In this document: positions 1 to 60,400 of the stretch, in pieces
How the letters are laid out: each line of letters opens with the position of its first letter
Numbering within the stretch: the first letter of the stretch is position 1
Source: an uncultured Verrucomicrobia subdivision 3 bacterium
Lineage (GTDB): Bacteria; Verrucomicrobiota; Verrucomicrobiia; Limisphaerales; UBA11358
Direction: 5' to 3'
Assembly: GCA_903917705.1 (NCBI GenBank)
Contig: CAIXBQ010000102.1
Coordinates: forward strand, 1-61,347
Length of the DNA stretch: 61,347 nt
Translations under genes and position numbers: made by a program
The notes under the pieces: generated by a model
Told to the model about the DNA's origin: nothing
The model's input: the letters and a program-made list of their open reading frames with translations, nothing else
Database searches by the model: none

Positions 1-528
1 AAAGATAATTCCATCGGCTCAAAACTGACAATTTCACTGACAGTGGCCACCTTTCTTGTCACGAAACCCTTTATTCATATGGGCTTAAACAAGCATGCCA
101 AGGAAAAGGTAAAGTTTTTGAACCTCTATCAAGCACTTACAGAAGTTGACCCCCCTGCTGGTAAAGTTTTCAGCCGGGGGGTGGTAAAGTTCCTGACCCT
201 TTCCCATTCGCGCCAATCGATGGCCCGTGCGGCACGCACTTTCTACATTCTGCATTCTTCCTTCTGCCTTTCCCCACTCGGGCGCGCGCCAAAAACTCGG
301 TGAAAAAGCCGCCAAAATGCGACAAAACCCGCCAAAATGTGACATGACTTATTACCGAAGTTAACCCGCTGTAAATTGTTAATATGTTCATAATAAACAT
401 GTTATGTCGTTTTTGGTAGAAGTTTGCCGGATTGTTCCGCTCTCCGCTTTTCCGAAGCCGTCTTTTCAAAAAAAGGTCGCGTTTAACCCTATAATAGGGC
501 ATGTTTGCACGATTAAATTGTCTCTGTC
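1..528. other. Non-coding 5' region with short repeats
   Basis: I see no convincing gene here. The visible structure is short repeats. GGTAAAGTT occurs at about 109, 160 and 183. Two 20-bp units starting CGCCAAAATG lie head to tail at 310 and 330. A heptamer-period block lies at 244-271. A 17-base string containing GTGCGGCACGCAC (about 224-240) recurs at about 57042-57058. The last part carries a TATAAT inside a palindrome that probably serves the nuclease gene downstream. Confidence 0.6.
487..499 (+). promoter_or_regulatory. Palindromic -10 element upstream of the nuclease gene
   Basis: CCCTATAATAGGG is a perfect 13-base palindrome that contains a consensus TATAAT at 490-495. It lies about 30 bases before the GTG start at 529, which would give a short leader. 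No good -35 hexamer stands 16-18 bases upstream, so this would be a weak or activated promoter. The dyad centred on the -10 could be a repressor site. The sequence is observed; the function is inferred. Confidence 0.35.
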
Positions 529-2442
529 GTGAGTAATTTGCCCCCGCACAACCCTCCCCGGAGGCGTTTGGTTCTGGCCTACGTTTCCATCGTGATGGTC
601 CTCCTGCTGGTTGCCCTGCGGGCGGATGCCACCATTGATATCACCCTCCAAATGCAGTTGGGCAATCCGAGCGGCGCCATTGTGGACACCAATAACCACA
701 ACCATTACTTGGTTCAGCGCACGGTCGAGGCTTTGGATTACAGCGACAATCTGGGCGAGCCGGTCTGGGCCAGTTGGGATTTGACGGCTGGCGATGTGGG
801 CACCAATTCCCGCTCCGCCAACTTTTTCACCGATACGAATCTGCCGGCGAACTTTTACCGCGTGACGGACAATGATTATAACGGCGTCGGTGCGACCAAT
901 GTTAATCTGAATCGCGGTCACCTGTGTCCTTCGGAAGACCGCACGGATACCCGCGCCGACAACGACCTGGTGTTTTTCATGTCCAACATCATGCCCCAGA
1001 GCGCCGTCAATAATCAGGGCGTGTGGGATCAGTTTGAAAACTATTGCCGCTCGCTGCTTTCCACCAACGAGCTGCTCATCATTTGCGGCCCGTGCGGTTT
1101 CGGCACCAACCGCATCCCCAGTGGCAAGGCCTATGTGCCCGATTATGTCTGGAAAATCGCCGTCGTGGTGCCGACCAACAGCGGCACCGCGTTGAGCCGC
1201 ATTACGAATTCCACCCGCGTCATCGCCCTGAAGATTCCCAACACGCAGCAGGCGACGAATCTCTGGCAGGATTACGTGACCTCGGTGAACCAGCTTCAGG
1301 TGGACACCGGCTTCACATTTTTCACCGCGTTGCCCGCCGGCGTCGCTTCTGTTTTGCGCGGCGTGGTGGACGGCCAGACCAATCCGCCGCCGGTCATCTA
1401 TGCTTTTTCGCCGACGAATGGCGCTGCCTATACCAATGTGTTCATCACCGGCACCAATTTCTCCGCTGCCACGGCGGTGGCCTTCAACGGGGTCGGCGCG
1501 TCGTTCACGGTGAACTCCGCCACGCAGATCACGGCCGTGGTGCCGACGAATGGCACCTCCGGCCTGATCAGCATCACCACCGGCAGTGGCACGGCCATCA
1601 GTTCCAACAGCTTCACGGTGATCGGTGGTCCCGTCGTCACGGTCTACCCCACCAATCTGCTGGCCGGCTGGGATGTCAGCGGCTGCACCAATTACGGCGT
1701 GTCCCCGCTGGCGGCCGCCACCAACAGTCCCAACATGACCGTGGTGACCGGCCTGTCGCGCGGCAGCGGGGTGACCACCAGCGGCTCAGCGGCTGCCCGG
1801 GGCTGGGGTGGCACGGGCTTTACCAATGTTTCCCCCGCCGCCGCCGCTGCCACCAATGAATACGTCTCCTTCACCCTCGCGGCCAATGCGGGCTATGTGG
1901 TTTCGTACACCTCGGTCAGCCGGTTCGACTATCGCCGTTCCACCGGCGGGCCCACCAATGGCGTGCTGCAATATCGGGTCGGGTTGGGGGCGTTTGTGGA
2001 TGTCACGAATCTCTCCTACCCCGTGGCCAACAGCGGTGCTTCCATCGGGCCGATTGACCTTGCCGGCATTGCGCCCCTGCAAAACCTCGTCGCCGGCACC
2101 AATGTCACCTTCCGCATCGTCAATTGCAACGGCGGTTCCGGCGGCACTTGGTATGTGTTTGATTCGGCGAACAGCAGCGCCCCGGATCTGGCCCTGCAGG
2201 GTGTCGTGGTTCCGGCTGTGGTGCCTGTTCCGCCGGCTCTGGCCATCGCCTTCACCAACTCGAATTCCATGATTATTACTTGGCCGGCCGCTGCCGCTGG
2301 CTTTGGCCTGCAGCAAAATGCCGATTTGACCACGACGAACTGGACCGCGGTGACCAATGCCGTCAGCCCCGCCGGTGACCGCTCTCAAGTCATTCTGCCT
2401 TGCTCATCCGTAAAAAACTTCTTCCGCCTGGTCGGCCCGTGA
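529..2442 (+). CDS. Exported DNA/RNA non-specific endonuclease with IPT/TIG domain
   Basis: The 637-residue protein begins with a basic stretch and a hydrophobic segment (residues 11-31), so it is probably secreted. Residues about 45-280 form a NUC1/NucA-type endonuclease domain. RGHLCPSEDR at 129-138 matches the family DRGHLAP site with the general-base histidine at 131. The NNQGVWDQFE stretch at 161-170 holds the metal-binding asparagine region and the downstream glutamate. An IPT/TIG immunoglobulin-like fold follows (about 286-365), then a module beginning LLAGWDVSGC, and a short C-terminal module ending FFRLVGP of a kind common in exported Verrucomicrobiota proteins. The start is a GTG; no ATG gives a complete signal peptide. 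The likely role is extracellular nucleic acid degradation. The nuclease call is firm; the roles of the C-terminal modules are inferred. Confidence 0.85.
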   Translation: MSNLPPHNPPRRRLVLAYVSIVMVLLLVALRADATIDITLQMQLGNPSGAIVDTNNHNHYLVQRTVEALDYSDNLGEPVWASWDLTAGDVGTNSRSANFFTDTNLPANFYRVTDNDYNGVGATNVNLNRGHLCPSEDRTDTRADNDLVFFMSNIMPQSAVNNQGVWDQFENYCRSLLSTNELLIICGPCGFGTNRIPSGKAYVPDYVWKIAVVVPTNSGTALSRITNSTRVIALKIPNTQQATNLWQDYVTSVNQLQVDTGFTFFTALPAGVASVLRGVVDGQTNPPPVIYAFSPTNGAAYTNVFITGTNFSAATAVAFNGVGASFTVNSATQITAVVPTNGTSGLISITTGSGTAISSNSFTVIGGPVVTVYPTNLLAGWDVSGCTNYGVSPLAAATNSPNMTVVTGLSRGSGVTTSGSAAARGWGGTGFTNVSPAAAAATNEYVSFTLAANAGYVVSYTSVSRFDYRRSTGGPTNGVLQYRVGLGAFVDVTNLSYPVANSGASIGPIDLAGIAPLQNLVAGTNVTFRIVNCNGGSGGTWYVFDSANSSAPDLALQGVVVPAVVPVPPALAIAFTNSNSMIITWPAAAAGFGLQQNADLTTTNWTAVTNAVSPAGDRSQVILPCSSVKNFFRLVGP

Positions 2443-2454
2443 GGCCTTCGGGGA

Positions 2455-2491
2455 TAAAAAAACGCAGCCGCGGCGGTGGCCGGCGGCTGCG
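2455..2491 (-). terminator. Rho-independent terminator of leuB
   Basis: CGCAGCCG (2463-2470) pairs with CGGCTGCG (2484-2491) around a GC-rich loop. Read on the minus strand, the stem is followed by a run of seven T. It lies between the convergent 3' ends of the nuclease gene and leuB, and its T-tract orientation assigns it to leuB. Confidence 0.75.
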
Positions 2492-2524
2492 CTTCTGAAA
2501 TGATTCCGGCGTCCTTGATTTTGC

Positions 2525-3631
2525 TTAAATCGCCGCCGCCACCGCATCGCCCATCTCGCGCGTGCCCACGCGCCGGGCGCCGGTTTCGCTGGCGCTGAAG
2601 ATGTCGCCCGTGCGGTTGCCCGCCGCGATGGCCTTGCCCACCGCCGCTTCAATCGCCGCCGCCGCCTCGTTCAAGCCGAAGCTGTGCCGCAGCATCAGCG
2701 CGCTCGACAGGATTTGCGCGATCGGGTTGGCCAGGTTTTTCCCCGCGATGTCCGGCGCGGTGCCGCCGGCGGGCTCGTAAAAGCCGAAGGTCTGGTTGCC
2801 GTTCGTCGCGCCAAGGCTCGCGCTGGGCAGCATGCCCAGCGAGCCGCCGAGCGCCGCGGCCTCATCGCTCAGGATGTCGCCGAACATGTTTTCGCAGAGC
2901 ATCACGTCGAACTGCGTGGGCTTGAGCATGAGCTGCATCGCCCCGTTGTCCACGAACATGTGTTCCAGCGTCACGTCGGGATAATTTTTGCCGACGCGCG
3001 TGACTACCTCGCGCCAGAGGATGCCGTTCTCCAGCACGTTCGCCTTGTCGATGCTCGTCAGCTTTTTGCGGCGCAGCTGCGCGGCCTTGAACGCGACGTG
3101 CGCGATGCGCTCGATTTCCGGCGTGGTGTAAACCATCGTGTCGATTGCGCGAAAATTTCCGCCGCCGATGTCCTCGGTCTTTTTCGGCTGGCCGAAATAC
3201 ATGCCGCCCGTCAGTTCCCGCACCACCAGGATGTCGATGCCGTCGCCCTGGCGTTCCTTCGCCAGCGGGCACGCATGTGCCAGCACCTTCGGCAGCGAGA
3301 CGGGGCGCAGGTTGGCGAACAGGCCGAACTCCTTGCGCAGCCGCAGCAGCGCGGCGCGTTCGGGGCGCTCCTCCTTCGGGATCATCGGGTCGCGGTCGGG
3401 CAGGCCGACGGAGCCGAACAGGATGGAGTCGGATTTTTGGCAGAGCGCCAGCGTCGCGTCCGGCAGGGCCTTGCCCGCCGCGTCGATGCCCGCCCAGCCG
3501 ACGGGCGCTTCCGTGATGTTGAGCTGGAAGCCGGATTTCTTTTCCGTGGCCCGTAAAACCTTGATGGCCTCGGCCATGACTTCGTTGCCGATGCCGTCGC
3601 CCGCGAGCGCTGCGATGTTGTAAGTTTTCAT
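2525..3631 (-). CDS. leuB: 3-isopropylmalate dehydrogenase
   Basis: LeuB oxidatively decarboxylates 3-isopropylmalate to 2-oxoisocaproate with NAD in leucine synthesis. The 368-residue length is normal for the family. GDGIGNEV near the N-terminus, ELTGGMYFGQP around 139-149 with the conserved tyrosine, Lys196 in SIDKANVL, and the metal-binding aspartates in GDILSDEAA (251-259) are all present, as is the NAD-site segment around GTAPDIAGK. The gene stands alone: leuA, leuC and leuD are not adjacent. A good terminator follows it. The 14-base stretch upstream of its start (3638-3651) recurs upstream of serA with one mismatch. Confidence 0.96.
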   Translation of the reverse strand: MKTYNIAALAGDGIGNEVMAEAIKVLRATEKKSGFQLNITEAPVGWAGIDAAGKALPDATLALCQKSDSILFGSVGLPDRDPMIPKEERPERAALLRLRKEFGLFANLRPVSLPKVLAHACPLAKERQGDGIDILVVRELTGGMYFGQPKKTEDIGGGNFRAIDTMVYTTPEIERIAHVAFKAAQLRRKKLTSIDKANVLENGILWREVVTRVGKNYPDVTLEHMFVDNGAMQLMLKPTQFDVMLCENMFGDILSDEAAALGGSLGMLPSASLGATNGNQTFGFYEPAGGTAPDIAGKNLANPIAQILSSALMLRHSFGLNEAAAAIEAAVGKAIAAGNRTGDIFSASETGARRVGTREMGDAVAAAI

Positions 3632-3637
3632 GAAAAC

Positions 3638-3651
3638 GAGCGGACAGTTTA
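3638..3651 (-). promoter_or_regulatory. Motif shared by the leuB and serA leaders
   Basis: On the minus strand this reads TAAACTGTCCGCTC, ending 6 bases before the leuB start codon. The same string with one mismatch (TAAACTGACCGCTC) lies 13 bases before the serA start at 56498-56511. Both genes are amino-acid biosynthetic. It could be a shared -10 region (TAAACT plus discriminator) or an operator. Confidence 0.35.
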
Positions 3652-3725
3652 TTCAAACAAAAAGTCGGAAGGAAGAAGGAAGAATGCCGGCCGCCGACGC
3701 AAACGCAGGCTTTGATTTTTGTTTT

Positions 3726-3753
3726 CGCATTCTGCATTCTACCTTCTGCATTT
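3726..3753. repeat. Heptamer-period block
   Basis: Four consecutive 7-base units, CGCATTC TGCATTC TACCTTC then TGCATTT, fill the gap just before the NUDIX start codon. The block at 244-271 is nearly identical. It belongs to the family of 7-bp periodic intergenic sequences found throughout the window. Confidence 0.7.
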
Positions 3754-3760
3754 CCGGTTT

Positions 3761-4267
3761 ATGACCCTGCCCTACAAAATCGCCACCTTGCTCTACTGCT
3801 TCAATGCGGCGGGCGATATCCTCCTGCTCGAGCGCGCGCAGGAGCCCAACCGCGGCCTCTGGAGCCCCTGCGGCGGCAAGCTCAAGCTGGACACCGGCGA
3901 ATCGCCTTACGCCTGTGCCTGCCGCGAGGCGCACGAGGAGATCGGCCTGGCCATCGCCCCCCCGGACCTGCACCTGACCGGCCTCATCAGCGAGCACGGC
4001 TATCAGGGCCAGACGCACTGGCTCATGTTCCTATTCGAGGTGAAGGTGCGGCTGCAAACCCTCCCGCCGCCGCATGCGGAAGGGCGCTTTGGCTTCTTCC
4101 CGCGCGACCAGATCCTGGCGCTGAACATTCCGCAGACCGACCGCGAGCAGATCTGGCCGTGGTTCTGGCAATACCGTGGCGGCTTCTTCGCCGCGCACTG
4201 CCATTGCCACCCGGACGGGCGGAACGATTGGACCCTGGAAGAATGCCAGGCGGCGAATGGCCGCTGA
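3761..4267 (+). CDS. NUDIX hydrolase
   Basis: The 168-residue protein carries the NUDIX box at about residues 40-62: GG, then GES, then REAHEEIG. The GG-to-GE spacing is two residues longer than the textbook G-x5-E, a variation seen in MutT-like members. NUDIX enzymes cleave nucleoside diphosphates linked to another moiety; the substrate cannot be told from the sequence. I start at the ATG at 3761, because the open frame upstream of it consists of heptamer repeat sequence. The C-terminal tail carries a His/Cys-rich AHCHCHPDG stretch. It is followed by tadA on the same strand after 54 bases. Confidence 0.85.
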   Translation: MTLPYKIATLLYCFNAAGDILLLERAQEPNRGLWSPCGGKLKLDTGESPYACACREAHEEIGLAIAPPDLHLTGLISEHGYQGQTHWLMFLFEVKVRLQTLPPPHAEGRFGFFPRDQILALNIPQTDREQIWPWFWQYRGGFFAAHCHCHPDGRNDWTLEECQAANGR

Positions 4268-4283
4268 CGCCTTCGCATCGGAT

Positions 4284-4319
4284 TAAATTGGAAATTTGAA
4301 ATTCGCAATTCGAAATTTG
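4284..4319. repeat. Heptamer-period block before tadA
   Basis: AAATTTG AAATTCG then CAATTCG AAATTTG, four 7-base units, sits immediately before the tadA start codon. It is partly self-complementary, so it could also fold into a weak AT-rich hairpin. There is no recognisable Shine-Dalgarno sequence in it. Confidence 0.65.
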
Positions 4320-4321
4320 CC

Positions 4322-4819: not shown

Positions 4820-4898
4820 TGGTTTTTTGATAAGTCATTGATAACCATTTGGTTTTATGAAAGTCCTGGGGGATGAGGCTCGTCGGAAAGCCCTCTTT

Positions 4899-5087
4899 CT
4901 GATTAGAAATCGTCAATTCCTGACCAGAAATTCCCGAGGACTGACCAGAAAACGAGGATTTCCGGTCAGACTTTTTGGGTCCCTGACCGGCGAACGGGAA
5001 AATCTGGCCAGTGACCACCGATTTCCGGTCAGTGATTAATGGTTTCCAATCAGACTTTCCGAATCACTGGCTGGAAAATGGAAAAGT
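4899..5087. repeat. Tandem array of nine 21-bp units
   Basis: Units start at 4899, 4920, 4941, 4962, 4983, 5004, 5025, 5046 and 5067 without a single insertion or deletion. The unit start alternates between CTGACCAG-like and CCGGTCAG-like octamers, which are near reverse complements, so most units carry a small dyad. The rest of each unit is heavily diverged. A tenth partial unit starts at 5088. The period equals three of the heptamers seen in other intergenic regions and two turns of B-DNA. Confidence 0.85.
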
Positions 5088-5349: not shown

Positions 5350-5370
5350 GTGTAAGGAACAGAAACTATA

Positions 5371-15426: not shown

Positions 15427-16923
15427 ATGAGCCACGACCCCAAATCCCGCCCCAGCTTCTCGCCCGGTTATCGCTGGCGGATCGCCTTGGATGCGGCGCT
15501 GCGCACGGTGCTGGTGTTGGCCGTGGTGCTGATGCTGAATTATCTCGGCGCAAAGTTTTTCCACCGGTTTTATTTGAGTTCGCAGACGAACGTGAATTTG
15601 TCCTCGCGCACGCTTGCGGTGCTGCATTCGCTTACCAACCGCGTGACCGTGACTCTGTATTACGACCGGAAGGCGGATTTTTATTCGGACATCAAGGCGC
15701 TGCTGGACGAATACCGCGCGGCCAACAACAACCTTTCCATCCGCACGGTGGACTATGTTCGCGATGCCGGCGAGGCGGAGAAGGTGAAGGAGCAATACAA
15801 CCTGCCCGGTTCGCCGGACAGCCCGAACGCGCCGCCGGGCAAGGACCTGATTATTTTTGACAACGGCAAACGCAGCCTCGTCGTCCCCGGCGACGCGATT
15901 GCGCAATACCAGCTGGAAAAGGTCGCGCCGGGAAATCCGGGGCAGAAGGAGTTGGAATTCCGGCGGAAACCGGTTGCCTTCAACGGGGAGGTTATGTTCA
16001 CGTCCAAGCTGATTGCGCTGGCAAATGCCCAGCCGCTGATGGCGTGCTTTCTGCAGGGTCACGGCGAATCATCGCTGGCCGACAAGGATAACTACGGCTT
16101 TGCTAAATTCGGACTGGCGCTCGCGCAGAATTATATCGCGGTGCAAAACCTGGAGCTGACCGGCGATAATCCGGTGCCGATGGACTGTAATCTGCTCATC
16201 ATCGCCGCGCCCACCGCGCCTTTGTCCGATCCGGAACTGAAAAAAATAGAAAAATATCTGGCCGAGGGCGGGCGGCTGCTCGCGCTTTTCAATTACGCCT
16301 CGGTCAATCGCCCGACCGGGCTTGAGCCAATCCTCCAACACTGGGGCGTCAATGTGTTTTCCGATTTCATCAAGGACCGGAACAACGCCACCGATGATTT
16401 GGTCGTCCGGAAATTCAGCTCCCATCCCGCGGTCAATCCGCTCACCCAGCTGGCCTTGCAGATGATCCGGCCGCGCGGTGTCGCCAGGGTGGACTTGTCG
16501 CATGCGCCCGCCAATGCGCCGCAGGTGGATGAAATTGCGTTCTCCAGTGACAACTCGGTGTTGGTTAGCGAGCCCGCCGCGTCGCCGCGCAGTTACCCGC
16601 TGATGGTCGCGGTGGAGCAGAAGCCTGTTGCCGGGGTGGTCAATCTGCGCGGCAATACGCGCATGATTGTTGTGGGTGATTCGCTTTTTCTCGGCAACCG
16701 CTTCATCGAAGCCGGCGGGAATCGCGACTTCGTCAGCTATGCCGCCAACTGGTTGCTCGACCGGCAGCAACTCGTTGCCGGCATCGGCCCGCGTCCCGTC
16801 ACCGAATTCCGCCTGCTGCTCACCAACCAGCAGCAGCGGCAGCTCCGCTGGCTGTTGCTTGGCGCCCTGCCCGGCGCGGTGCTGGTTTTTGGCTGGTTCG
16901 TTTGGTTTGCCCGTCGAAAATGA
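15427..16923 (+). CDS. GldG-like membrane-anchored ABC accessory protein
   Basis: The 498-residue protein has one N-terminal membrane helix (TVLVLAVVLMLNYLGAKFF) and one C-terminal helix (LLGALPGAVLVFGWFVWFA), with a large periplasmic part between. The segment NLSSRTLAVLHSL followed by VTVTLYYDRKADFY and the later LLIIAAPTAPLSDPELKKIEKYL match the GldG/DUF7088 family. It starts one base after the permease stop and overlaps the DUF4340 gene by four bases. This places it in the same exporter complex. Confidence 0.82.
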   Translation: MSHDPKSRPSFSPGYRWRIALDAALRTVLVLAVVLMLNYLGAKFFHRFYLSSQTNVNLSSRTLAVLHSLTNRVTVTLYYDRKADFYSDIKALLDEYRAANNNLSIRTVDYVRDAGEAEKVKEQYNLPGSPDSPNAPPGKDLIIFDNGKRSLVVPGDAIAQYQLEKVAPGNPGQKELEFRRKPVAFNGEVMFTSKLIALANAQPLMACFLQGHGESSLADKDNYGFAKFGLALAQNYIAVQNLELTGDNPVPMDCNLLIIAAPTAPLSDPELKKIEKYLAEGGRLLALFNYASVNRPTGLEPILQHWGVNVFSDFIKDRNNATDDLVVRKFSSHPAVNPLTQLALQMIRPRGVARVDLSHAPANAPQVDEIAFSSDNSVLVSEPAASPRSYPLMVAVEQKPVAGVVNLRGNTRMIVVGDSLFLGNRFIEAGGNRDFVSYAANWLLDRQQLVAGIGPRPVTEFRLLLTNQQQRQLRWLLLGALPGAVLVFGWFVWFARRK

Positions 16924-21356: not shown

Positions 21357-21824
21357 CCCGGTCCGGCTAGTCGTTTCCGGCCGAGTCCGGCCAAAAACGA
21401 GCTCTTCTTGCGTAAATCGTTGATTTCCAAAACGAAGGACGGCAAAACTCCCGCCTGAACCGGTTCCGGGGAATGGAATTCCGTTAACGGAAAACGAAAA
21501 ACCGGTAACGGAATATCACATTCCGGCATCGGAATATGGTTTTCGGTCAACGGAAAATGGAATTCCGGTATCGGGAAATGAAAAACCGTCAACGGAAAAT
21601 GATTTACCGACATCGAAAAATGACATTCCAGTGACGGAAAATGAAAAGGGGAGAACTGGAAATGGGTTTCCGAACCCGGAAAACCCCAAAAGGGCGTCGT
21701 AAAATCTCCGGATGCGACCGGAAAGTGATACGGGGTAAGCATCCCCCGCTTGGCGCAGACCCAAGGCTTTGGCCGGTGCGGCACTCCGCAGCCCCACTGT
21801 TCAAAGCATGTACCGCCGGCGTCG
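21357..21824. other. Convergent intergenic region dominated by a 21-bp array
   Basis: Between the AsmA-like gene and gspD nearly half of the sequence is the 21-bp array (21467-21687). A minus-strand frame at 21353-21784 encodes imperfect 7-residue repeats. It has no start context and no conserved flanks, so I do not call it a gene. Confidence 0.65.
21467..21687. repeat. Tandem array of ten 21-bp units
   Basis: Units start at 21467, 21488, 21509, 21530, 21551, 21572, 21593, 21614, 21635 and 21656, each beginning CGGAA or a close variant, with no slippage. A partial unit follows at 21677. The junctions form dyads such as TTCCGGCATCGGAA. The sequence differs from the 4.9-kb array but the period and gapless spacing are identical. 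Confidence 0.88.
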
Positions 21825-26252: not shown

Positions 26253-26337
26253 GATTTTGGATTTACGAATGACAATGAACGCGCCCGGTTGATTGGGGGC
26301 GCGTGAATCGTGAATCGTGAATCATAAATGATTTCAT
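26253..26337. repeat. Heptamer-period blocks between gspE and gspL
   Basis: GATTTTG GATTTAC then GAATGAC AATGAAC fill 26253-26280. Three exact GTGAATC units followed by ATAAATG and ATTTCAT fill 26303-26337. Both blocks keep a strict 7-base step. They occupy most of the only gap in the secretion gene run. Confidence 0.75.
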
Positions 26338-30716: not shown

Positions 30717-31793
30717 ATGAAAATCGGCATTGTCACAGGCGGCGGCGATTGTCCCGGCTTGAACGCCGTCATTCGCGCTGTTGCTAAAACCGCCGCCTCG
30801 CGCGGTTGGGAAACCCTCGGCATCATCGGCGGCTACGACGGCCTGTTGTCGCCCCAGAATTATCGCGTGCTGGATTACAAGGCGCTTGACGGCCTGCTGG
30901 TGCGGGGCGGGACAATTCTTGGCACGGCCAATCGCGGCCGGTTTTCCGCCAAAACCGGTCACGGCGAGACGCGCCAGCTCCCCAGGGAACTGTTGGATGA
31001 AACCAAACGGGGGATGGAAACGCTGGGCATTTCCGCGCTGGTGTCCGTCGGCGGCGACGGGTCGCTGACCATCGCGCAGCAGATGCACGAGGCGGGTATT
31101 CCGATCGTGGGCGTGCCCAAGACCATTGACAACGACTTGGCGGCAACCACGGTCACGTTCGGTTTTGATTCCGCCGTGGCCTGCGCCACCGACGCGCTGG
31201 ACCGCCTGCACACCACCGCCGAAAGCCATAATCGCGTGATTGTGCTGGAGGTGATGGGGCGGTACGCGGGTTGGATCGCGCTTTACGCCGGCGTCGGCGG
31301 CGGCGCGGATGTGATTCTAATCCCGGAAATTCCGTTTCGCTACGAGAGCATTTGTGAAGCCGTTGGGGAGCGCGAAAAGAAGGGCAAGCATTTCACGCTG
31401 GTCATTGCGGCGGAAGGCGCGCGGATGGCGGGCGGCGATTTTGTCACCGCCGGCGGCCAGCAGCAAAATCGCGAGGCGCGCCTCGGCGGCATCGGCGCGG
31501 TGGTTGCGGCTGAAATTGAAAAGCGCACCGGCAAGGAGACGCGCTCGATGGTGTTGGGGCATTTGCAGCGCGGCGGCAGCCCGACGTTCATGGATCGCGT
31601 GCTTTGCACCTTGTTTGGCGCCAAGGCCGTGGAATTGATCACCGAGGGTCGTTTTGGACGAATGGTTGCCCATAATGGAAAATTTGTGGACAGCGTACCA
31701 CTGGCGGCGGCCACTGGCCAATTGCGCACGGTGCCGCTGGACGAGGGCTTTGTCCGCACGGCCCGTTCGCTGGGCATCAGCATGGGCGACTAG
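30717..31793 (+). CDS. pfkA: 6-phosphofructokinase
   Basis: The enzyme phosphorylates fructose 6-phosphate to fructose 1,6-bisphosphate. The 358-residue chain begins MKIGIVTGGGDCPGLNAVIR. It has GGDGS at 112-116 and PKTIDND at 134-140. Glycine in GGDGS is typical of ATP-dependent enzymes. Lysine in PKTIDND replaces the glycine of E. coli PfkA and is found in PPi-dependent and group III enzymes, so the phosphoryl donor is uncertain. The RMGRYAGWIAL-like VMGRYAGWIAL and GHLQRGGSP motifs are intact. The stop codon TAG is the left end of a 178-bp inverted-end element. Confidence 0.92.
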   Translation: MKIGIVTGGGDCPGLNAVIRAVAKTAASRGWETLGIIGGYDGLLSPQNYRVLDYKALDGLLVRGGTILGTANRGRFSAKTGHGETRQLPRELLDETKRGMETLGISALVSVGGDGSLTIAQQMHEAGIPIVGVPKTIDNDLAATTVTFGFDSAVACATDALDRLHTTAESHNRVIVLEVMGRYAGWIALYAGVGGGADVILIPEIPFRYESICEAVGEREKKGKHFTLVIAAEGARMAGGDFVTAGGQQQNREARLGGIGAVVAAEIEKRTGKETRSMVLGHLQRGGSPTFMDRVLCTLFGAKAVELITEGRFGRMVAHNGKFVDSVPLAAATGQLRTVPLDEGFVRTARSLGISMGD

Positions 31794-31969
31794 AGCGTTT
31801 GAGAAAATAGTGTGGCCGTTCGGCGCGAGGATTTTTGGGATTTGGCGAGGCTTTGGCGAAGGAGCAGGTTCAAGCAACCCTGTGACCGAGCCGAAACGAA
31901 GCCAAAACCAAAAAAGACCGCCCTCATTTTGGTTCCAGCCGGGCGGCTCCAGTATTTATGAAAACGCTC
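31793..31969. mobile_element. Inverted-end element, copy 1 (177 bp)
   Basis: The left end GAGCGTTTGAGAAAATA and the right end TATTTATGAAAACGCTC are imperfect inverted repeats. Inside, CCGTTCGGC pairs with GCCGGGCGG by GT wobbles, and a TTTGG-type arm pairs with CCAAAA. A central CAGGTT/AACCCTG hairpin has a variable loop. The left end shares the G of the pfkA stop TAG, and the right end supplies the first ATG of the mqnA frame. No coding sequence is inside. It resembles a MITE or a structured repeat. Confidence 0.75.
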
Positions 31970-32797
31970 AAAATCATTCCGCAGGCTGGTTTTGCCGCGG
32001 ATAATTTTATAGGCTGTCATAGATTGGAAGCCAAGCCAGAACCAGAATTTCGCATCGGTTCGGTGCATTATCTGAATGCCGCGCCGCTGACGCGTGGTAT
32101 CGTAAGCGAACTCGTTTTTACCACGCCCGCGAAGCTCGCCGGCATGCTCCGGCGCAATGAATTGGATGCCGCGCTCGTCAGCCTCACCGAGGTCTTGCTC
32201 AACGATCGTTATGATCTCCTCGAGGACATCGCCATCGCGTCGTTTGGCGAAGTTTATAGCGTGCTGCTGGCGCACCGGCAACCGCTGGCCGGGGCCAAGG
32301 AGATTTTTTGTGACCCCGCCTCGCTCACCAGCGTGAACCTCCTGAAAGTGCTGCTCGCCGAGCGCGGTTTAAAACCGGAGTTCAAGCCGCTGGAAAATTA
32401 CGCCGCCGCGCCGGAAAAGGATTTTGTTCTGCTCATCGGCGACCGGGCGATTGAATTTCAGCGTTCGCCGCACTCCCACGAAATACTGGATCTTGGTGCT
32501 GCGTGGTCGGAGTTGACGAATCTGCCGTTTGTATATGCGGTCTGGGCGCTGCGGCGCGGGATTCAAAACCAGGCGCTGCGCCGGGAGCTGCGCGCGGCCA
32601 AACATTTCGGATTGGAGACGCTGGAGCAGATCATCGAGACGCGCGCGGAGTTTGACGAGGCTTTCCGTCGTGATTACTTCGAATGGCACATCCACTACCA
32701 CCTCGGCGAGGATGAAAAGCGGGCCATCAAAAGATTCTGCGAATTGCTTCGCAAGCATGACCTCGGCCCGGTGTTCGAGCCGAGGTATGTAAGTTGA
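31958..32797 (+). CDS. mqnA: Chorismate dehydratase
   Basis: MqnA dehydrates chorismate to 3-[(1-carboxyvinyl)oxy]benzoate, the first step of the futalosine pathway. The family signature RIGSVHYLNAAPL, the DAALVSLTEVL stretch, and DPASLTSVNLLKVLL are clear, as is the C-terminal HYHLGEDEKRAI region. The first ATG (31958) lies inside the repeat element, and its first roughly 30 residues have no family counterpart. An in-frame TTG at 32024 would start eight codons before RIGSVHYLN, which is where family members begin. I give the ATG as the outer limit but think the TTG is at least as likely. Confidence 0.88.
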   Translation: MKTLKIIPQAGFAADNFIGCHRLEAKPEPEFRIGSVHYLNAAPLTRGIVSELVFTTPAKLAGMLRRNELDAALVSLTEVLLNDRYDLLEDIAIASFGEVYSVLLAHRQPLAGAKEIFCDPASLTSVNLLKVLLAERGLKPEFKPLENYAAAPEKDFVLLIGDRAIEFQRSPHSHEILDLGAAWSELTNLPFVYAVWALRRGIQNQALRRELRAAKHFGLETLEQIIETRAEFDEAFRRDYFEWHIHYHLGEDEKRAIKRFCELLRKHDLGPVFEPRYVS

Positions 32798-34209: not shown

Positions 34210-34285
34210 CCAAAGTCCAACGCCCAAAGTCGGGTCAGGTAGTTAGACTTTGGACTTTAGACTTTGGACTTTAGACTTTAGACTG
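34210..34285. repeat. Heptamer-period blocks before nusB
   Basis: Six consecutive units T(A/G)GACTT run from 34244 to 34285. In the opposite sense CCAAAGT CCAACGC CCAAAGT fills 34210-34230. The two sets are complementary, so a hairpin is possible. The block ends six bases before the nusB ATG, leaving no room for a normal Shine-Dalgarno sequence. Confidence 0.8.
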
Positions 34286-37929: not shown

Positions 37930-39147
37930 ATGAGCCGTTCAATACCAAACCGCGATGAGTCATTTTTGCGCAAAGCCTTGCTCCAGGCGCAAAAAGGGTT
38001 TGGCGCAACCTCGCCCAATCCGCTGGTCGGTGCGGTGCTGGTGAAGGGCGGCAAAATCATCGGTTGCGGCTGGCATCGGCGCGCGGGGTTGCCGCATGCG
38101 GAAATCGAGGCCCTGCACAACGCCCGGCAGCGCGGCTGGTCTGCGAAAGGGGCGACCCTTTACGTCACGCTCGAACCGTGCTGCACGCATGGCCGCACGC
38201 CACCTTGCACGATGGCCATCGTCACCGCCGGCCTCCGACGGGTCGTCATTGGTGCGGTTGACCCCAATCCTCAGCACGGGGGTAGGGGTTTCAAGATTTT
38301 GCAGAATGCGGGGATTGAAGTGGTTGCCGGCATATTAGGCGACGAATGTGCGGCGTTGAACGAGGCGTTCAATCACTGGATTGTCCGCCGCACGCCGTTT
38401 GTCACCGTGAAAGCCGCCATGACGCTGGACGGGAAAATTGCCACGGCCGGCGGTGAATCCAAATGGATCACCGGGGAAAAGGCCCGCGCGTATGGCATGA
38501 AGTTGCGCCAGGGCAGCGATGCCATTCTCGTCGGCGTGAACACGGTGCTCGCGGACGATCCGTCGTTGTCTGTCAGGCCTTCCGGGGGCAAGCCATCGTC
38601 AGCCTGCGCGGCTGAACCGGCCAGGCTGCGCCGCATTGTGCTGGATTCGCTGGCGCGCACCCCGGTGACGGCCAGGGTGGTCAGCGACGGGTTGGCTCGG
38701 CTGACCACCATTGTGGTCAGCCGGTTCGCGCCGGCAAACCGGGTGGCTGCGCTGGCCGATAAAGTGAACCTCATCGTCGCGCCTTTGGCTGGCTCAAACC
38801 GCAAAAACCATAATTCAAAACTGGATTTGGCTTGGCTGCTGGAAAAACTCGGCGCGGAAAACGTGACCAGCCTGTTGGTGGAGGGCGGTGGCGAGGTGAA
38901 CGCATCCTTTCTGCTCGGCGGCCACGCGCAGCGCGTGGCGTTCTTTTACGCGCCGAAAATCTTGGGCGGCCGGTCAGCGCGGAAGGCCGTCGCGGGCGAT
39001 GGCGCCGAAAGTCTGGGCCGGGCGATTCAGCTTCGTGAAGTCGCATGGCGGAAACTGGGTGGCGATTTGTTGCTGACCGCCCTGGCCGGCCGGCCGGACT
39101 CCGGGGCGGCGCGTTTCGGTCCTGGAGCATTGACAGGAAAGATGTAG
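37930..39147 (+). CDS. ribD: Bifunctional riboflavin biosynthesis deaminase/reductase
   Basis: RibD performs two steps in riboflavin synthesis: deamination of the pyrimidine ring and reduction of the ribose. The deaminase domain has the zinc ligands His56 (with Glu58 in HAE), Cys84 and Cys93 in LEPCCTHGRTPPC. The reductase domain starts near VTVKAAMTLDGKIAT and contains the VEGGGEVNASFL and KILGG motifs. The final residues (GALTGKM) and the TAG stop are encoded by the left end of a 178-bp repeat element, so the native C-terminus has been replaced. ribE follows beyond the element. Confidence 0.93.
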   Translation: MSRSIPNRDESFLRKALLQAQKGFGATSPNPLVGAVLVKGGKIIGCGWHRRAGLPHAEIEALHNARQRGWSAKGATLYVTLEPCCTHGRTPPCTMAIVTAGLRRVVIGAVDPNPQHGGRGFKILQNAGIEVVAGILGDECAALNEAFNHWIVRRTPFVTVKAAMTLDGKIATAGGESKWITGEKARAYGMKLRQGSDAILVGVNTVLADDPSLSVRPSGGKPSSACAAEPARLRRIVLDSLARTPVTARVVSDGLARLTTIVVSRFAPANRVAALADKVNLIVAPLAGSNRKNHNSKLDLAWLLEKLGAENVTSLLVEGGGEVNASFLLGGHAQRVAFFYAPKILGGRSARKAVAGDGAESLGRAIQLREVAWRKLGGDLLLTALAGRPDSGAARFGPGALTGKM

Positions 39148-39302
39148 CGATGGGCAGTGTGGATTTTTGGTTTTTTGGCGAGGCTTTCGGGAAGGCGCAG
39201 GTTTGAAAACCCTGTCACTGAGCGGAAACAAAACCTAAAACCAAAAAGACCGCTGTCCGTTAGGGACCTCAGCGCATCGCTACATATTTGATGGATATGC
39301 TC
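39125..39302. mobile_element. Inverted-end element, copy 2 (178 bp)
   Basis: Outer ends GAGCAT/ATGCTC and inner GTAGCGATG (39144-39152) / CATCGCTAC (39275-39283) are inverted repeats. The core contains the family stretches GGCGAGGCTTT, a CAGGTTT/AAACCCTG hairpin and AAAACCAAAAAGACCGC. The left end lies inside ribD and provides its last codons and stop. The closest relative is copy 3 at 48560; their left flanks share CATTGAC(A/C)GGAAAGA. Confidence 0.75.
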
Positions 39303-39366
39303 TAAGCCCGGTGGTCCGGAGTAAACGCGGCTCGACTGGACCTTGTCCCGCCCTTAAAATATTTTC

Positions 39367-42106: not shown

Positions 42107-42191
42107 ATTTACGATTTATGATTTGCGGTTTACGAGCTTTTTCATATTGCGGGTCGCCGGAGTGACGAACTTAGGGCTTTAGACTTTGGCT
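42107..42191. repeat. Heptamer-period blocks between exonuclease and redoxin genes
   Basis: ATTTACG ATTTATG then ATTTGCG GTTTACG fill about 42107-42134. TTAGGGC TTTAGAC then TTTGGCT fill about 42171-42191. The second block shares the TTTAGAC core with the one before nusB. Together they occupy most of this short divergent gap. Confidence 0.7.
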
Positions 42192-49624: not shown

Positions 49625-49666
49625 ACCCCTCCTTCGACACGCGCCTGGGAAGTTTGTTCACCCCTG

Positions 49667-49844
49667 GAGCGTTTGAAGAAATAGTGTGGCCGTTCGGAGC
49701 GGGGATTTTTTGGTTTTGGCGAGGCTTTGGCGAAGGAGCAGGTTCCAGGCAACCCTGTGATTGAGCCGAAACGAAGCCAAAACCAAAAAAGACCGCCCTC
49801 CTTTTGGCCCCCGCCGAACGGCTGCAGTATTTATGAAAATGCTC
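49667..49844. mobile_element. Inverted-end element, copy 4 (178 bp)
   Basis: Ends GAGCGTTTGAAGAAATA and TATTTATGAAAATGCTC are inverted repeats, as in copy 1. The subterminal CCGTTCGG/CCGAACGG pair is perfect here, whereas copy 1 keeps the pairing with GT wobbles. The core and central CAGGTT/AACCCTG stem are conserved. The right end stops six bases before the kamA stop codon. Confidence 0.75.
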
Positions 49845-49850
49845 TAAGAC

Positions 49851-56484: not shown

Positions 56485-56497
56485 AGGTTAAACAAAT

Positions 56498-56511
56498 GAG
56501 CGGTCAGTTTA
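56498..56511 (-). promoter_or_regulatory. serA copy of the leuB/serA leader motif
   Basis: On the minus strand it reads TAAACTGACCGCTC, one mismatch from the leuB copy. It lies 13 bases upstream of the serA start codon. Confidence 0.35.
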
Positions 56512-56551
56512 AGTCAGCCGGCAATTCGGGTCAAACAGCGAAATCCGGCCC

Positions 56552-56607
56552 CTGACCTCTGACCTCCGATCTCTGACCTCTGGTTTTTGTCCTTTCCGGT
56601 CTCCGGT
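56552..56607. repeat. Heptamer-period block of eight units
   Basis: CTGACCT CTGACCT then CCGATCT CTGACCT then CTGGTTT TTGTCCT then TTCCGGT CTCCGGT follow one another without gaps. It is one of the longest 7-bp phased blocks in the window. Confidence 0.8.
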
Positions 56608-57090
56608 CGCAAGTTTCATCCCTCGGTCCGATGGTGGGGCGAGACTCCGTCGAGCCCTGATTAAAAGAGGTCCCGTGGTCTGTGGTCAGTAGTCCCCTTT
56701 GCGCCTTCGCGTCTTTGCCGCCCACTGAAGCACCGAAGCACTGAAGCACCGGTTTTCCGGTCCGTCATTCGTCATTCAAAATTCGGGATTCGTAATTTCC
56801 CGCGCTTTCCGTTTTCGTGTTTTTAGCGTATTTCGTGATTTAAAAACTTTGCGCCTTTGCGTGACCCATTTCATTGCCGTCTTGGTGTTTCTTGGTGGTT
56901 AATTTCGCTTTCGGCCCAACTCAAAACTCAAAATTCAACGCTCACGATTTGTTTCACCTTCTCCCTTGGTGCCTTGGTGGTCAAGGTTTCCGCTTTCCGC
57001 TTTTCATTTGTAGTCCGTAGTCCGTGGTCTGGTGATTGCCCGTGCGGCACGCACCTTTCCATTTTCAGTTTTTTACATCATTGCCCCGGG

Positions 57091-58011
57091 TTGCGGAGAT
57101 GGCTCAACCCCGACCCCATCGGCTTTGAAGGAGGGCGAAACCTGTATGGGTTCGTTGGAAACGACCCCATCAATTTCCGGGACCAACTTGGACTTCAAAG
57201 CAGTCAAAGTATATTGCCCGTCGTATATGTCCCAGACTATTCGGCATTTGGATCTGTGCCGCCAGTTTCAAATGCTGGCCAAAGCAAGCTGAATCAAATA
57301 CAGGCAGACGTTGCGTCTCTTAAACAGACTATCAGCCTGGGCGAATTGTTCACCCCCGGCACGGATGCTACGCAATGGTGGAAGGACCACCCCGAAGCCG
57401 CGGATGCATTCTGGATGGGGGCGGCGAATGGGGCTTTAACAGCAGCAGTATTCATTGACCCTGAAAGCCTGGCTTTTGAAGGCGGCTTGGAGGGTAGACT
57501 TTTTAGCTTTGGCGGCCAAGCGGACAAAGCAGCAATAACCTCGGAAACCAGATTGGGTTCCCTTGAATGCGGTGAAATAAAGGCTTCGACCACGCCAATA
57601 AAAACGGGGTCCGAATTAACGCAAACAACCAAAAGCTCGGTTGCAAACGGCTCAGATGTGTGCAAAAATGGCGCAGATAGTGAAACGGCGCGTGTTTTCT
57701 GGTCAGGTGGCGATAAGATGAGAGAAGCCGCAGAGGCATGGGCAAAGGCCAATAATGCTACTACCCTTGAAATGACCGCTGCTGGTCAACGTCTTACAAC
57801 AACGACCAAGGATTTGGATTGGCTAACAGAAGCTCGGTCGATGTGGGCCAATGAATCTACAGCCTTTGCCAAGGGTGCTCAGGGCGATGTTCACGTTTTC
57901 CAGTGGAACAGTCCACAAAGTTTTGACAATATGACGATTTGGCGCGAATTTGAGTTTCCCGTTTTAAAGCAACAGGGGAACAATTTAATATACCACCTCA
58001 TAGATCCCTGA
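57091..58011 (+). pseudogene. Orphan Rhs C-terminal tip with toxin domain
   Basis: The frame enters abruptly at the Rhs core end (RRWLNPDPIGF, then NLYGFVGNDPI and DQLGL), with no Rhs core or start codon upstream; repeat DNA precedes it. After the core end come about 110 residues of linker with AAFW-type DAFWMGAANGAL. A C-terminal domain of about 110 residues begins ARVFWSGGDKMREAAEAWA. It continues TTLEMTAAGQRL, AFAKGAQGDVHVFQW and IWREFEFPVL. I cannot name its activity, but its position is that of a polymorphic toxin. The next gene, 3 bases downstream, looks like its immunity gene. It is either a displaced tip awaiting recombination or a decayed gene. Confidence 0.7.
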
Positions 58012-58014
58012 AAT

Positions 58015-58296
58015 ATGTTCTCAATACCCAGAACTAATGTGGTTGAAAGCGATGCTGGATTCTCCGTGGAAGTTCTTGGCAGAACCGGAATACAATACTG
58101 TGAAAACGGTCGTTCGATGAAGATTGATTCAGAGGTTTTGATGGGACCCAAAGCGATGGCCATTTATTCCTATTCATTTACCACTTGGTTGCCTCCGCAT
58201 CAAGCAGAGCTCGTCGATGAAGCTACTAAGGCAAGGATTGCAGAGAATCTTCGCGCGGCGTTTCGATTTCGTGGTGTTGAAATTGACATTATTTGA
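58015..58296 (+). CDS. Imm74-like immunity protein
   Basis: The 93-residue protein starts FSIPRTNVVESDAGFSVEVLGRTG. The blocks IDSEVLMGPKAMAIYSYSF, TTWLPPHQAELVDE, and ARIAENLRAAFRFRGVEI match my knowledge of Imm74-type immunity proteins of polymorphic toxin systems. It starts three bases after the stop of the Rhs tip, the usual toxin-immunity spacing. It is intact while the toxin is truncated at its N-terminus, as expected for an orphan module kept for protection. Confidence 0.65.
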   Translation: MFSIPRTNVVESDAGFSVEVLGRTGIQYCENGRSMKIDSEVLMGPKAMAIYSYSFTTWLPPHQAELVDEATKARIAENLRAAFRFRGVEIDII

Positions 58297-58510
58297 AAAA
58301 GCGAAATACACCAAACTTAAACTGTCCCGTCGCCAGTCCTGACGACCCATATCTTCCCCTGGGATTGGTGTCAAACGGATCAGATGCCCCAAATGACCAA
58401 CAGCCAAATCCCCGAGGTCGCGCCCAAGTCTGGGGGAAACTCAAAAGACGCTGCACTAGCAAGCCGCATCATAAACATCGTGCAGAGTACGTCTCACTCT
58501 TACGAAGTCA
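58297..58510. other. Decayed sequence between the two Rhs modules
   Basis: The sequence is AT-richer than the flanking chromosome and has no frame I can assign. It separates the + strand Rhs tip/immunity pair from the minus-strand toxin remnant. Confidence 0.45.
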
Positions 58511-58705
58511 CTACCGTCGTTCTGTCAAGATGGTTTCCCGCTTGACGCTTACGAGTGAAATGAAAGTCTCTCCTTTCGCAGGAATTTGGCGGGTATTGAG
58601 CAACTGCTCATAGTGCTCCTGGCTCATGGTCCGGAAGAACGTCTCCGTTCCACCCTCTGCGGCTAGTGGTTTCCGCCATTCTCCGCAATTGGTTGCCGCT
58701 ATTTT
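58511..58705 (-). pseudogene. Remnant of a polymorphic-toxin C-terminal domain
   Basis: A minus-strand frame with no start codon encodes AEGGTETFFRTMSQEHYEQL and then LNTRQIPAKGETFIS before degenerating and stopping at 58511. This segment looks like the beginning of a toxin domain seen at the C-termini of Rhs and related proteins, where GGTETFFRTMS is followed by an ATGETF-type block. The catalytic remainder is missing. It lies immediately after the ankyrin gene in the same direction, the usual place for a displaced alternative tip. Confidence 0.45.
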
Positions 58706-59199
58706 TCAAGCGCCGCTAAATACTGGGCAATCGCATCTCTTCCTAAGTTACGTGCGTGGGTCTGTGCATCAACATCTTTCATGTTGTCGCCGTTATACCT
58801 AATTCTGAAATCTATCCCCTCCCTTACCAGCATATGCACCATCGCGAGATTGTCGTTATAAACCGCGCTAAACAAAGGATTTCGAAATGGCTCATCTGTT
58901 TCCATACGTGCGCCATGCGCCAGCAAGTATTCGGCGGCTTCCAAATGGCCATCCGAAACTGCATACATAATCGGGCCTGCCTCGAACGCCCCACCCCGTA
59001 GATTAATATCAGCTCCCATTTTCAGGAGATGCTCAATGGCTGGAATGTTTCCTTCGCCTGCAGCTACGTGAAGTAATGATCCAAATATCGTCAGTTCATT
59101 GATGCGCTGTGGTTCCAGTCTCAACAACTTCTCCAACGTTGCCGAATCTCCGGACTTGATCGCTTCACGCGCCTGTTTTCCAAATGATATAGTATCCAT
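58699..59199 (-). CDS. Ankyrin-repeat protein, probable immunity protein
   Basis: The 166-residue protein contains at least three ankyrin repeats: FGSLLHVAAGEGNIPAIEHL, GPIMYAVSDGHLEAAEYLL, and NPLFSAVYNDNLAMVHMLV. There is no signal peptide. The ATG at 59199 is separated from the toxin stop by one base (TAATATG), so the two are translated together. Ankyrin proteins are known immunity partners of Rhs nuclease tips. An in-frame start 27 bases earlier would overlap the toxin gene. Confidence 0.72.
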   Translation of the reverse strand: MDTISFGKQAREAIKSGDSATLEKLLRLEPQRINELTIFGSLLHVAAGEGNIPAIEHLLKMGADINLRGGAFEAGPIMYAVSDGHLEAAEYLLAHGARMETDEPFRNPLFSAVYNDNLAMVHMLVREGIDFRIRYNGDNMKDVDAQTHARNLGRDAIAQYLAALEK

Positions 59200-59200
59200 A

Positions 59201-60046
59201 TTAGCGACGATTTGCAGCCTTTTCACCCATCCGCCTGAGAAATTTTACAACATCGTCCTTTGTGCCTCCAGCTGCTTCAATTTCTTTGAGTCCGTTAAGC
59301 ACTTCTTCTAGATTAGCAACAATATGTTGGCCCTTAATATTCGGCGCAATAACCCGATTCACTGCGTCTGTAGCATGGATAATTCCATAACGCTCAAGTA
59401 TCTCCGAGCCTTCCTTAACCAAAGCCTGTTGAGTTTTGCCGATCCCCTTTTCGTAAAGAATATGATGATCATGGGGTCTCGGCATTCCCTCTGCAGCATT
59501 GTCACATACTTTACCGCCATTTGCAACCATGTCCTTGACTTGAGTTGCTGCTGCATTTGCGGTGACATGTTCAGTCTGAACTGCCACATCTTTCTCGACG
59601 GTCTTTCCCAGTGAGCTGGCACACCGCTTCAGAAAGTTCTTACCGAAACTCTTTGCTGTTTTTCCAGCTACGGGAACTAGGTCAAGTGCGACCCCAAAAT
59701 AGATGCCTGTCTTTTCCCATCCAGACATATCGATGTTTCCGGATCTGCCAAGTTCAAAACCATCGCGGAAATATGGGAACAAATTGTCGAACGGGTGATG
59801 TGCGATATCCATTATCACGTCTTTGCCCGCCCCAACCATCATGGTTCCAGCTATTGCCAGATCCTTTTGTGGAATCAACGTCAGATCAGCCCCGGGAAAC
59901 CCGGGGACTGCCAACCCCAATTCATCCCAGTTGTTTATCGGATCATTCCCGACGAACCCATACAGGTTCCGGCCACCGGCAAAGCCAATGGGGTCGGGGT
60001 TGAGCCAAACTCCGACATCAAATCGAAGCCTGAAAAATGTGGCAGG
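59201..60046 (-). pseudogene. Orphan Rhs C-terminal tip with AHH/HNH-type nuclease domain
   Basis: The open frame carries the Rhs core end (WLNPDPIGF, NLYGFVGNDPI, WDELGL) from about 60007 downward, with only about 13 unrelated residues and a stop before it. A linker follows with YFGVALDLVPVAGKTAKSF. A C-terminal domain contains PHDHHILYEKG, EILERYGIIHATDAVNRVIAPN, and KGQHIVANLEEVL. The paired histidines and the later N-x-x-x-AP and H positions fit the A-HH subgroup of HNH/EndoVII nucleases. The toxin part is complete, but the Rhs delivery core is missing. The ankyrin immunity gene follows. Confidence 0.7.
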
Positions 60047-60354
60047 TCATTCAATCTCAATGGTTTGCCAAGAAAATGATGCCTGCCCGGATTGGAGTCC
60101 GAAGCTGCTCCCAAAATGGGGAATTGTATTAAATTGCGCGGCGCGGCGGGTAAGTCGGGTTCATCTTAACTTTCTTACTCCAGGTTCTTCGCTCCCTGAT
60201 TCCTTCGCCCTTCCAGTTTCTAACTACTAACTCCTCCCTTCCAACTTAAAACTCACAATTTGTTTAACCTTTGCCCTTGGTGCCTTGGTGGTAAAAGCTT
60301 CCGCTTTTGTCTTTGCTGTCCACCGAAGCACCGAAGCACCGCTTTTCCGGTCCG
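60047..60354. other. Repeat-rich non-coding region right of the Rhs island
   Basis: The main content is a run of ten gapless heptamers at 60185-60254 (TTCTTCG CTCCCTG then ATTCCTT CGCCCTT onward) and a copy of the 56942-57003 repeat at 60251-60310. There are also CGAAGCAC repeats near 60324-60341. No gene is supported. Confidence 0.65.
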
Positions 60355-60400
60355 TCATTCGTCATTCAAAATTCGGGATTGGTAATTTCCTGCCCTTTCC
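60321..60400. repeat. Second copy of the roughly 80-bp intergenic repeat
   Basis: This matches 56731-56810 almost base for base, including GCTTTTCCGGTCCGTCATTC and the heptamer run GTCATTC GTCATTC then AAAATTC GGGATT. It covers the 3' end of the XRE regulator gene and encodes its last residues. Confidence 0.8.

Follow-up and report, generated by a model that had tools for sequence, protein, structure and literature searches.

The window analyzed here is a stretch of 61,347 nucleotides (contig CAIXBQ010000102.1) from an uncultured Verrucomicrobia subdivision 3 bacterium, and many of its gaps between genes contain tandem arrays of 7-base units (heptads). The serA product encoded by the window is 84-92% identical to its counterparts in many genomes labelled Verrucomicrobia subdivision 3 or Limisphaerales. 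With a probability of about 0.8, these arrays are ends of small mobile elements, either lacking the gene or decayed; the complete element has a gene for a four-helix-bundle protein between inverted heptad arrays. The protein belongs to the S23, or 23S rRNA intervening-sequence, family and is referred to below as IVP. In the genus of the window's genome and on plasmids from other phyla such genes lie between heptad arms, the arrangement is specific for the IVP gene family, arms and protein are inherited jointly, and the element has inserted into an unbroken place with a short duplication. Descent of the window's own arrays from IVP elements is likely, being supported though not proven.

A four-helix-bundle gene between inverted heptad arms

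In the congener G008, an open frame between two arms of AACATCC units matches PF05635 and TIGR02436 (four helix bundle protein). PF05635 was found in 12 of the 13 genus genomes, at 77 places, 70 of which score above the curated cut-off; G011, which showed no arrays in a 9-kb gap sample, has no match. The flanks were tested at 67 of the 77 places, leaving out three in the crowded contig L347, two inside L244/L245 and five below the cut-off. Inverted arms with a score of at least 16 flank 49 of these 67 IVP genes compared with 6 of 300 control genes (Fisher p 7e-39), and at a score of at least 13 the figures are 57/67 and 30/300. Among control genes with wide gaps on both sides such arms are found at 2/86 and 12/86, respectively, and when the upstream flank of one IVP gene is combined with the downstream flank of another, at 1/67 and 4/67. 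Conversely, the genus sample contains seven inverted array pairs with a spacing of 250-1200 bp; six of them have an IVP gene inside, and the seventh links two gene-less hairpins of one unit family. The arm units differ from one IVP gene to the next, close relatives excepted. As a separate observation, a selenocysteine tRNA gene lies directly beside an IVP gene in the congener G006 (L338:280-372).

Relatives of the IVP protein are encoded in 24 records of a plasmid collection. Eighteen of the records, from Cyanobacteria, Bacteroidota (Riemerella), Alphaproteobacteria (Azospirillum) and Gemmatimonadota (Gemmatirosa), were analyzed, four further Riemerella/Trichormus element records and H14 and H21 being left out. 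Inverted arms scoring at least 16 were present in 17 of the 18, each above all of its 20 shuffles, and 15 of these 17 have lag-7 runs (score at least 9) on both sides, the other two resembling 8-base units. The plasmid copies lie between protein genes, including nrdB and nrdA, and in three cyanobacterial plasmids (L366, L373 and L376) they are situated in CRISPR gene clusters, twice with cas6 and cas4 as neighbors on either side and once with cas10 and a cmr3-type gene. On an Azospirillum lipoferum 4B plasmid (L369:1-1521), an IVP gene with heptad arms lies within a 23S rRNA gene, the whole stretch matching large subunit (LSU) rRNA, so that heptad arms of the same kind also belong to a true intervening sequence; this IVP gene is unannotated in the plasmid table. 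The other 77 of the 78 gene-bearing loci scanned (60 genus and 18 plasmid stretches, not including eight genes of earlier loci, each at most 20 kb long) gave no rRNA match. An origin from phages was rejected, as one IVP query found no match in 50,697 phage records at E 1e-5.

Taken together, 85 elements were available, of which 74 (arm score at least 13) entered a count of arm periods and 69 a comparison of proteins. The best arm period is 7 in 65 of the 74 elements, 8 in seven and 9 in two, and 98 of 138 measured arms are four to five units long. Arms are alike in 28 of 35 pairs of elements with an IVP identity of at least 70% and in 36 of 2210 pairs below 50%. Alike arms extend across phyla, linking the Verrucomicrobia element L305 with the cyanobacterial plasmid elements L365, L371 and L374 (73-74% protein identity). 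The arms thus track protein identity, which suggests that the gene moves along with its arms.

Movement is visible where filled and empty sites can be compared. A Trichormus variabilis plasmid typed as conjugative has the element as a 423-bp insertion that is bordered by GTAAT at either end and lies across the upstream gene's stop codon, and Nostoc linckia and Fremyella plasmids with flanks about 98% identical are without it. Relative to C057 (flanks about 89% identical), pNsp_a of Nostoc ATCC 53789 has a 413-bp insertion flanked by TTCTA; here too the insertion point is a stop codon, and the element's first base completes it again. In the third comparison, pNsp_c, the insertion measures 503 bp and is flanked by TAATG and TTATG, identical at four of five bases. 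The only gene annotated in the 413-423 bp elements is that for the four helix bundle protein, and they have no transposase of their own. The copy on pC052_E of Nostoc C052 retains the left arm and a shortened gene, the right arm being gone, and appears from its sequence as if it were decaying into a solitary array.

Hairpins, dispersal, inverted ends and a 5-bp duplication would also suit palindromic repeats of the repetitive extragenic palindrome/bacterial interspersed mosaic element (REP/BIME) type or miniature inverted-repeat transposable elements (MITEs), moved in trans by an ordinary transposase. This explanation is unlikely, however, since what the arms enclose is an IVP gene and not a transposase, and because the ends differ from lineage to lineage, one transposase could not know them by sequence.

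Seven-base periodicity and unit families

The first-pass annotation had described strictly 7-base-phased runs in at least a dozen gaps of the window, regarded them as one window-wide family, and proposed comparing lag-7 autocorrelation with shuffled controls in the wider genome and its relatives. Segments were scored ungapped (+1/-1) with a threshold score of at least 11 and counted in gaps predicted with a home-made hexamer gene finder, which misses some genes, such as an ankyrin-repeat gene on the minus strand at 58699-59226, itself within a repeat-rich stretch of 3.9 kb. The runs are real: there are 11 lag-7 segments in the 9,930 bp of the window's 35 predicted gaps, whereas 100 dinucleotide shuffles gave 0.02 on average and never more than 1, and in the same gaps lags 4, 5, 6, 8, 9, 10, 11, 12 and 13 yield 0, 0, 0, 2, 0, 1, 0, 0 and 0 segments. 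In all 14 listed stretches the share of identities at lag 7 (56-86%) exceeds that at lag 6 or 8, the weakest being 60185-60254.

The excess is likewise found in the wider genome and among its relatives. In 431 kb of the window's genome there are 63 lag-7 segments, compared with 0.3 in shuffles and 1.2 in length-scaled coding DNA, and every lag that is not a multiple of 7 gives at most nine; in 400 kb of the congener G001 the corresponding figures are 36, 0.3 and 4.5. Lags 14 and 21 are also elevated, part of the lag-21 signal being supplied by separate 21-base arrays, one of which fills the gap at 21472-21643 of the window with eight degenerate units (AATGGAATTCCGGTAACGGAA), while the rest of the genome contains further 21-base arrays made of other units. 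The gap at L116:18124-18246 and similar gaps of G001 show a second repeat period, of about 10 bases (ACAGATGGGCACGGATGGACACAGAT), to which the lag-10 excess in that genome (9 and 13 segments) may be due. At least one lag-7 segment is present in 12 of the 13 genus genomes, three of them small samples with just one each, and G011 has none in a 9-kb gap sample. The loci of 80 named relatives contain 20 segments against 0-1 in five shuffles, a weaker excess because lags 6 and 8-11 give 5-10 there, and other families of the order have few (3 in 7 genomes, about 43 kb of gap sequence).

The arrays do not form the single family that had been envisaged. Several unit families are present, 27 in all, with six of them accounting for 58% of 130 arrays compared with 10% for random 7-mers, and units recur across genomes (ATTTACG in eight, GGACTTT in six, AACATCC in four). 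In G001 an inverted partner in the same gap was found for 25 of 36 arrays, compared with 6/36 when other array gaps were used and 1/36 in shuffled gaps. Orthologous gaps contain hairpins or arrays with other units, or have no array. In one gap shared by G001, G005 and G010, AAC recurs at almost every 7-base step of both arms and the remaining four positions vary; a fourth species is without heptads there. The unit positions that vary are the same across gaps in three of seven families (p 0.01, 0.00035 and 0.00015, uncorrected for seven tests), to which common descent of the copies could contribute. Set apart from these, two gene-less hairpins of one unit family (L106:15290-15409 and 16270-16380) each lie directly 5' of a sequence that we take, from its motif, to be a prepilin-type N-terminal signal.

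Array density is similar in convergent, divergent and tandem gaps (4.2, 5.2 and 5.5 per 10 kb), and a promoter or terminator role was rejected on this ground. The absence of such bias would suit plain replication slippage favoring 7-base steps, in which arrays arise anywhere between genes and then drift with no element involved. Some arms reach 16 to 40 units, which would fit as well, and heptamers are over-represented in many bacteria, for which a polymerase-footprint cause has been proposed (PMC4692102). Slippage probably does change array length, but it does not explain arms on both sides of one gene family, arms that follow protein identity, whole elements that are present or absent with a short duplication, or the small number of unit families common to several species. 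It is largely refuted for the gene-bearing copies and quite improbable as a general account.

A further alternative is that the arrays are operator or RNA sites of a host regulator that reads a 7-base spacing, for which the omega repressor of pSM19035 and TRAP are comparison cases, and that IVP genes are merely among the genes regulated. About four ATTTACG units stand at the place of the 42107 gap in five of ten genomes compared (that is, in four of nine besides the window's own), and this, with the fixed unit positions of three families, speaks for such a role. Against it are the many different units inside one genome, the lack of a promoter-side bias, the rarity of such arms at control genes and, at two clean plasmid sites, the absence of the arms where the gene is missing; overall a host regulator is very improbable. 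The omega family PF07764 has no match in the window's genome, but control genomes are equally without one.

Window arrays as candidate element ends

The complete element, as seen in relatives of this bacterium and on plasmids of other phyla, has a single IVP gene flanked on either side by an array of mostly four to five 7-base units, the two arrays being inverted. Five chains each are present in 2gsc (XCC0516 of Xanthomonas campestris) and 2rld, the relatives with solved structures, and XCC0516 has been reported as a homopentameric toroid of four-helix bundles (PMC4990558). It may be guessed that an IVP pentamer ring sits on an arm with each subunit contacting about one unit, in which case the 7-base phase would be kept while the unit letters drift along with the protein; four to five units per arm fits such a ring, although it is no proof of it. 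By analogy with 23S rRNA intervening sequences, the arm pairs might form a transcript hairpin cleavable by RNase III. The first-pass annotation had suggested two possible causes, slippage or copying bound to a 7-base step and a protein recognizing the spacing. The involvement of a protein holds in that such arrays are read here as the inverted arms of an element encoding a four-helix-bundle protein, which was invisible from the window because its copies carry no gene, whereas slippage fails to account for paired arms.

The window's 14 sites were compared with 294 arm stretches of 84 elements, using 40 permutations of each unit (Table 1). Three sites matched IVP arms better than all 40 permutations, six ranked in the best 3-7% and one stood at 10%. 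Three inverted pairs occur in the window, of which only that at 26254-26329 clearly folds better than shuffles as RNA. A hairpin similar to that at 3661-3753 is present in the congener G004 in a different gap, and the gaps orthologous to 26254-26329 in ten other genomes have heptads with other units or no array. The array at 60354-60388 belongs to a stretch of 81 bp that is 94% identical to 56731-56811. A known RNA family was rejected as an explanation for the window's arrays, there being no Rfam match at the gathering score anywhere in the window.

Table 1. Heptad arrays and hairpins of the window, with positions on the forward strand; percentages are the share of permuted units matching IVP arms as well as the actual units.
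Feature	Positions	Partner, score or match
Solitary array, TTCTGCA type, likely decayed arm	244-271	16/21 lag-7 identities; best arm L357, 5%
Gene-less hairpin, left arm	3661-3687	inverted partner 3726-3753, score 15 (null mean 7.7); RNA fold z -1.55
Gene-less hairpin, right arm (TTCTGCA)	3726-3753	L335 arms matched better than all 40 permutations
Solitary array (AAATTCG)	4285-4319	no inverted partner found; L344, 10%
Gene-less hairpin, left arm	26254-26286	inverted partner 26297-26329, score 17 (null means 7-8)
Gene-less hairpin, right arm (GTGAATC)	26297-26329	RNA fold z -5.06; arm match not significant
Left arm (CCAAAGT)	34210-34231	inverted partner 34246-34267, score 16 (null mean 7.6); RNA fold z -1.39
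Right arm (TAGACTT/TGGACTT), six units	34244-34285	best arm L113, 3%
Solitary array (ATTTACG)4 adjoining gene start	42107-42135	no inverted partner; L342, 17%, not significant alone
Array CTGACCT, continuing into other heptads	56552-56607	33/49 lag-7 identities; no inverted partner; arm match not significant
Array GTCATTC, near-copy of 60354-60388	56764-56798	L344 arms matched better than all 40 permutations
Array ACTCAAA	56919-56946	L322 arms matched better than all 40 permutations
Array TAGTCCG	57011-57031	L310, 7%
Weak heptad mosaic	60185-60254	35/63 lag-7 identities; arm match not significant
Array GTCATTC, second copy	60354-60388	L344, 3%

Several results weigh against reading the window's arrays as ends of IVP elements. 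The window's contig has no PF05635/IVP match, so that the reading, if right, requires the arrays there to be gene-less, and 47 of the 52 arrays of the G001 sample do not adjoin an IVP gene. The number of IVP genes per Mb is uncorrelated with array density across 13 genomes (Spearman 0.28, p 0.35). Arms of score 16 are absent at 18 of the 67 IVP genes, and lag-7 runs of score 9, found beside 60/67 of them, also occur beside 57/300 control genes. The 5-bp target duplication is clean in two of four comparisons, the fourth (nrdB-nrdA) being unclear, and all of these are plasmid elements and none from Verrucomicrobia.

The window's own genome also shows no excess of inverted pairing (8/52 arrays, compared with 10/52 in the other-gap control and none in shuffled gaps), many of its arrays sitting within long mosaics. 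For nine of the 14 sites a clear inverted partner is lacking within 200 bp, many shuffles fold as well as two of the three hairpins (z -1.4 and -1.55), and the sites at 26303, 42107, 56552 and 60185 are not distinct, 17-50% of permuted units matching IVP arms equally. Fixed unit positions are not seen in four of the seven unit families. Arms are not exact mirrors, as shuffles of unit order in one arm mostly score equally (23 pairs, median p 0.54), a result on which copying of one arm from the other was rejected. Sense-strand mismatches within arm pairs comprise 16 G-T and 16 A-C. Given these equal counts and the inexact mirroring, selection on an RNA hairpin is not visible, and RNA-level selection was rejected as an explanation.

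Other repeats were observed in the window. A palindrome-like, REP-like sequence at 56633-56668 (GGTGGGGCGAGACTCCGTCGAGCC) occurs at many places in the congeners G001 and G004, where two copies frequently lie near each other in opposite orientation. Three dispersed repeats, each of about 180 bp and some 90% identical to copies elsewhere in the genome, are located at 31791-31972, 49664-49847 and 39125-39305, the first two belonging to one family, and a further dispersed repeat at 100-344 has several copies of 75-89% identity in the genome's other contigs.

Relation to known heptad repeats and intervening sequences

Heptad arrays had been thought to lack a described counterpart in such a genome, and this is correct only in part. 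Already known are a heptamer excess in many bacteria and inverted heptamer pairs in Xanthomonas (PMC4692102), TAACTGA repeats in Beggiatoaceae (PMC4679880), sites in Geobacter (PMC2700814) and heptamers beside the S23p gene of one intervening sequence (PMC4990558). A description of heptad arrays as the ends of a dispersed one-gene S23/IVP element was not found in searches of open-licence literature, although other papers could hold one. The reading favored here, that the window's arrays are remnants of such an element, would join two loose ends, namely the frequency of seven-base tandem repeats and the role of intervening-sequence four-helix-bundle proteins outside rRNA. If it is true, a mobile element of about 415 bp with no recognizable transposase has passed between phyla, can land at a stop codon between two genes, sits within CRISPR and ribonucleotide-reductase clusters, and leaves behind hairpins that form a visible share of intergenic space. 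It would also make the question of why seven testable and explain an otherwise unexplained repeat pattern in several bacterial groups.

The short tandemly repeated repetitive (STRR) sequences of cyanobacteria are tandem 7-base units between genes, as found here as well, with one or few conserved unit sequences; the present arrays differ in falling into 27 unit families, the six largest with 58% of the arrays. The omega repressor of pSM19035 reads contiguous 7-base units in direct and inverted order, but its fold differs from that of the four-helix-bundle protein, its unit is fixed and its heptads are not known to be element ends. The GGGGATT repeats of Nostoc and GGGAATC repeats of Xanthomonas, the latter forming 70 and 75 convergent pairs in two species, represent one unit type per organism studied, unlike the many units here; the main text of that paper makes no mention of four-helix, S23, intervening sequence or XCC0516 (PMC4692102). 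In Beggiatoaceae, TAACTGA repeats are intergenic arrays of two to six units, interpreted as regulator sites, and the paper leaves four-helix, S23, IVP and intervening sequence unmentioned (PMC4679880). Geobacter sites of four or five units have been interpreted in the same manner (PMC2700814). Both are intergenic heptad arrays in distant phyla, and those of Beggiatoaceae differ in being almost all direct and not inverted. It is conceivable, if doubtful, that the cyanobacterial STRR, Xanthomonas GGGAATC, Beggiatoaceae TAACTGA and Geobacter MTYCTGA heptads, together with those of the genus, all represent ends of a single class of one-gene element spanning several phyla, with the 7-base phase as the footprint of a pentameric ring; were the ring to read one unit per subunit, the unit letters would co-evolve with the protein and the spacing would stay fixed.

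The intervening sequence of Coxiella burnetii consists of an S23p gene with inverted ends that form a 28-bp stem, 428 nt in total, with tandem heptamers beside the gene start that differ in number between strains; it is reported to be excised by RNase III, and the authors think that S23p is not made in Coxiella (PMC4990558). The elements described here share with 23S rRNA intervening sequences a gene from one family, matched in relatives by both PF05635 and TIGR02436, between stem-forming inverted ends (49/67 in the genus, 17/18 on plasmids). They differ in that they lie mostly outside rRNA (77/78 loci), have heptad arms on both sides of the gene, and are accompanied by gene-less hairpins genome-wide.

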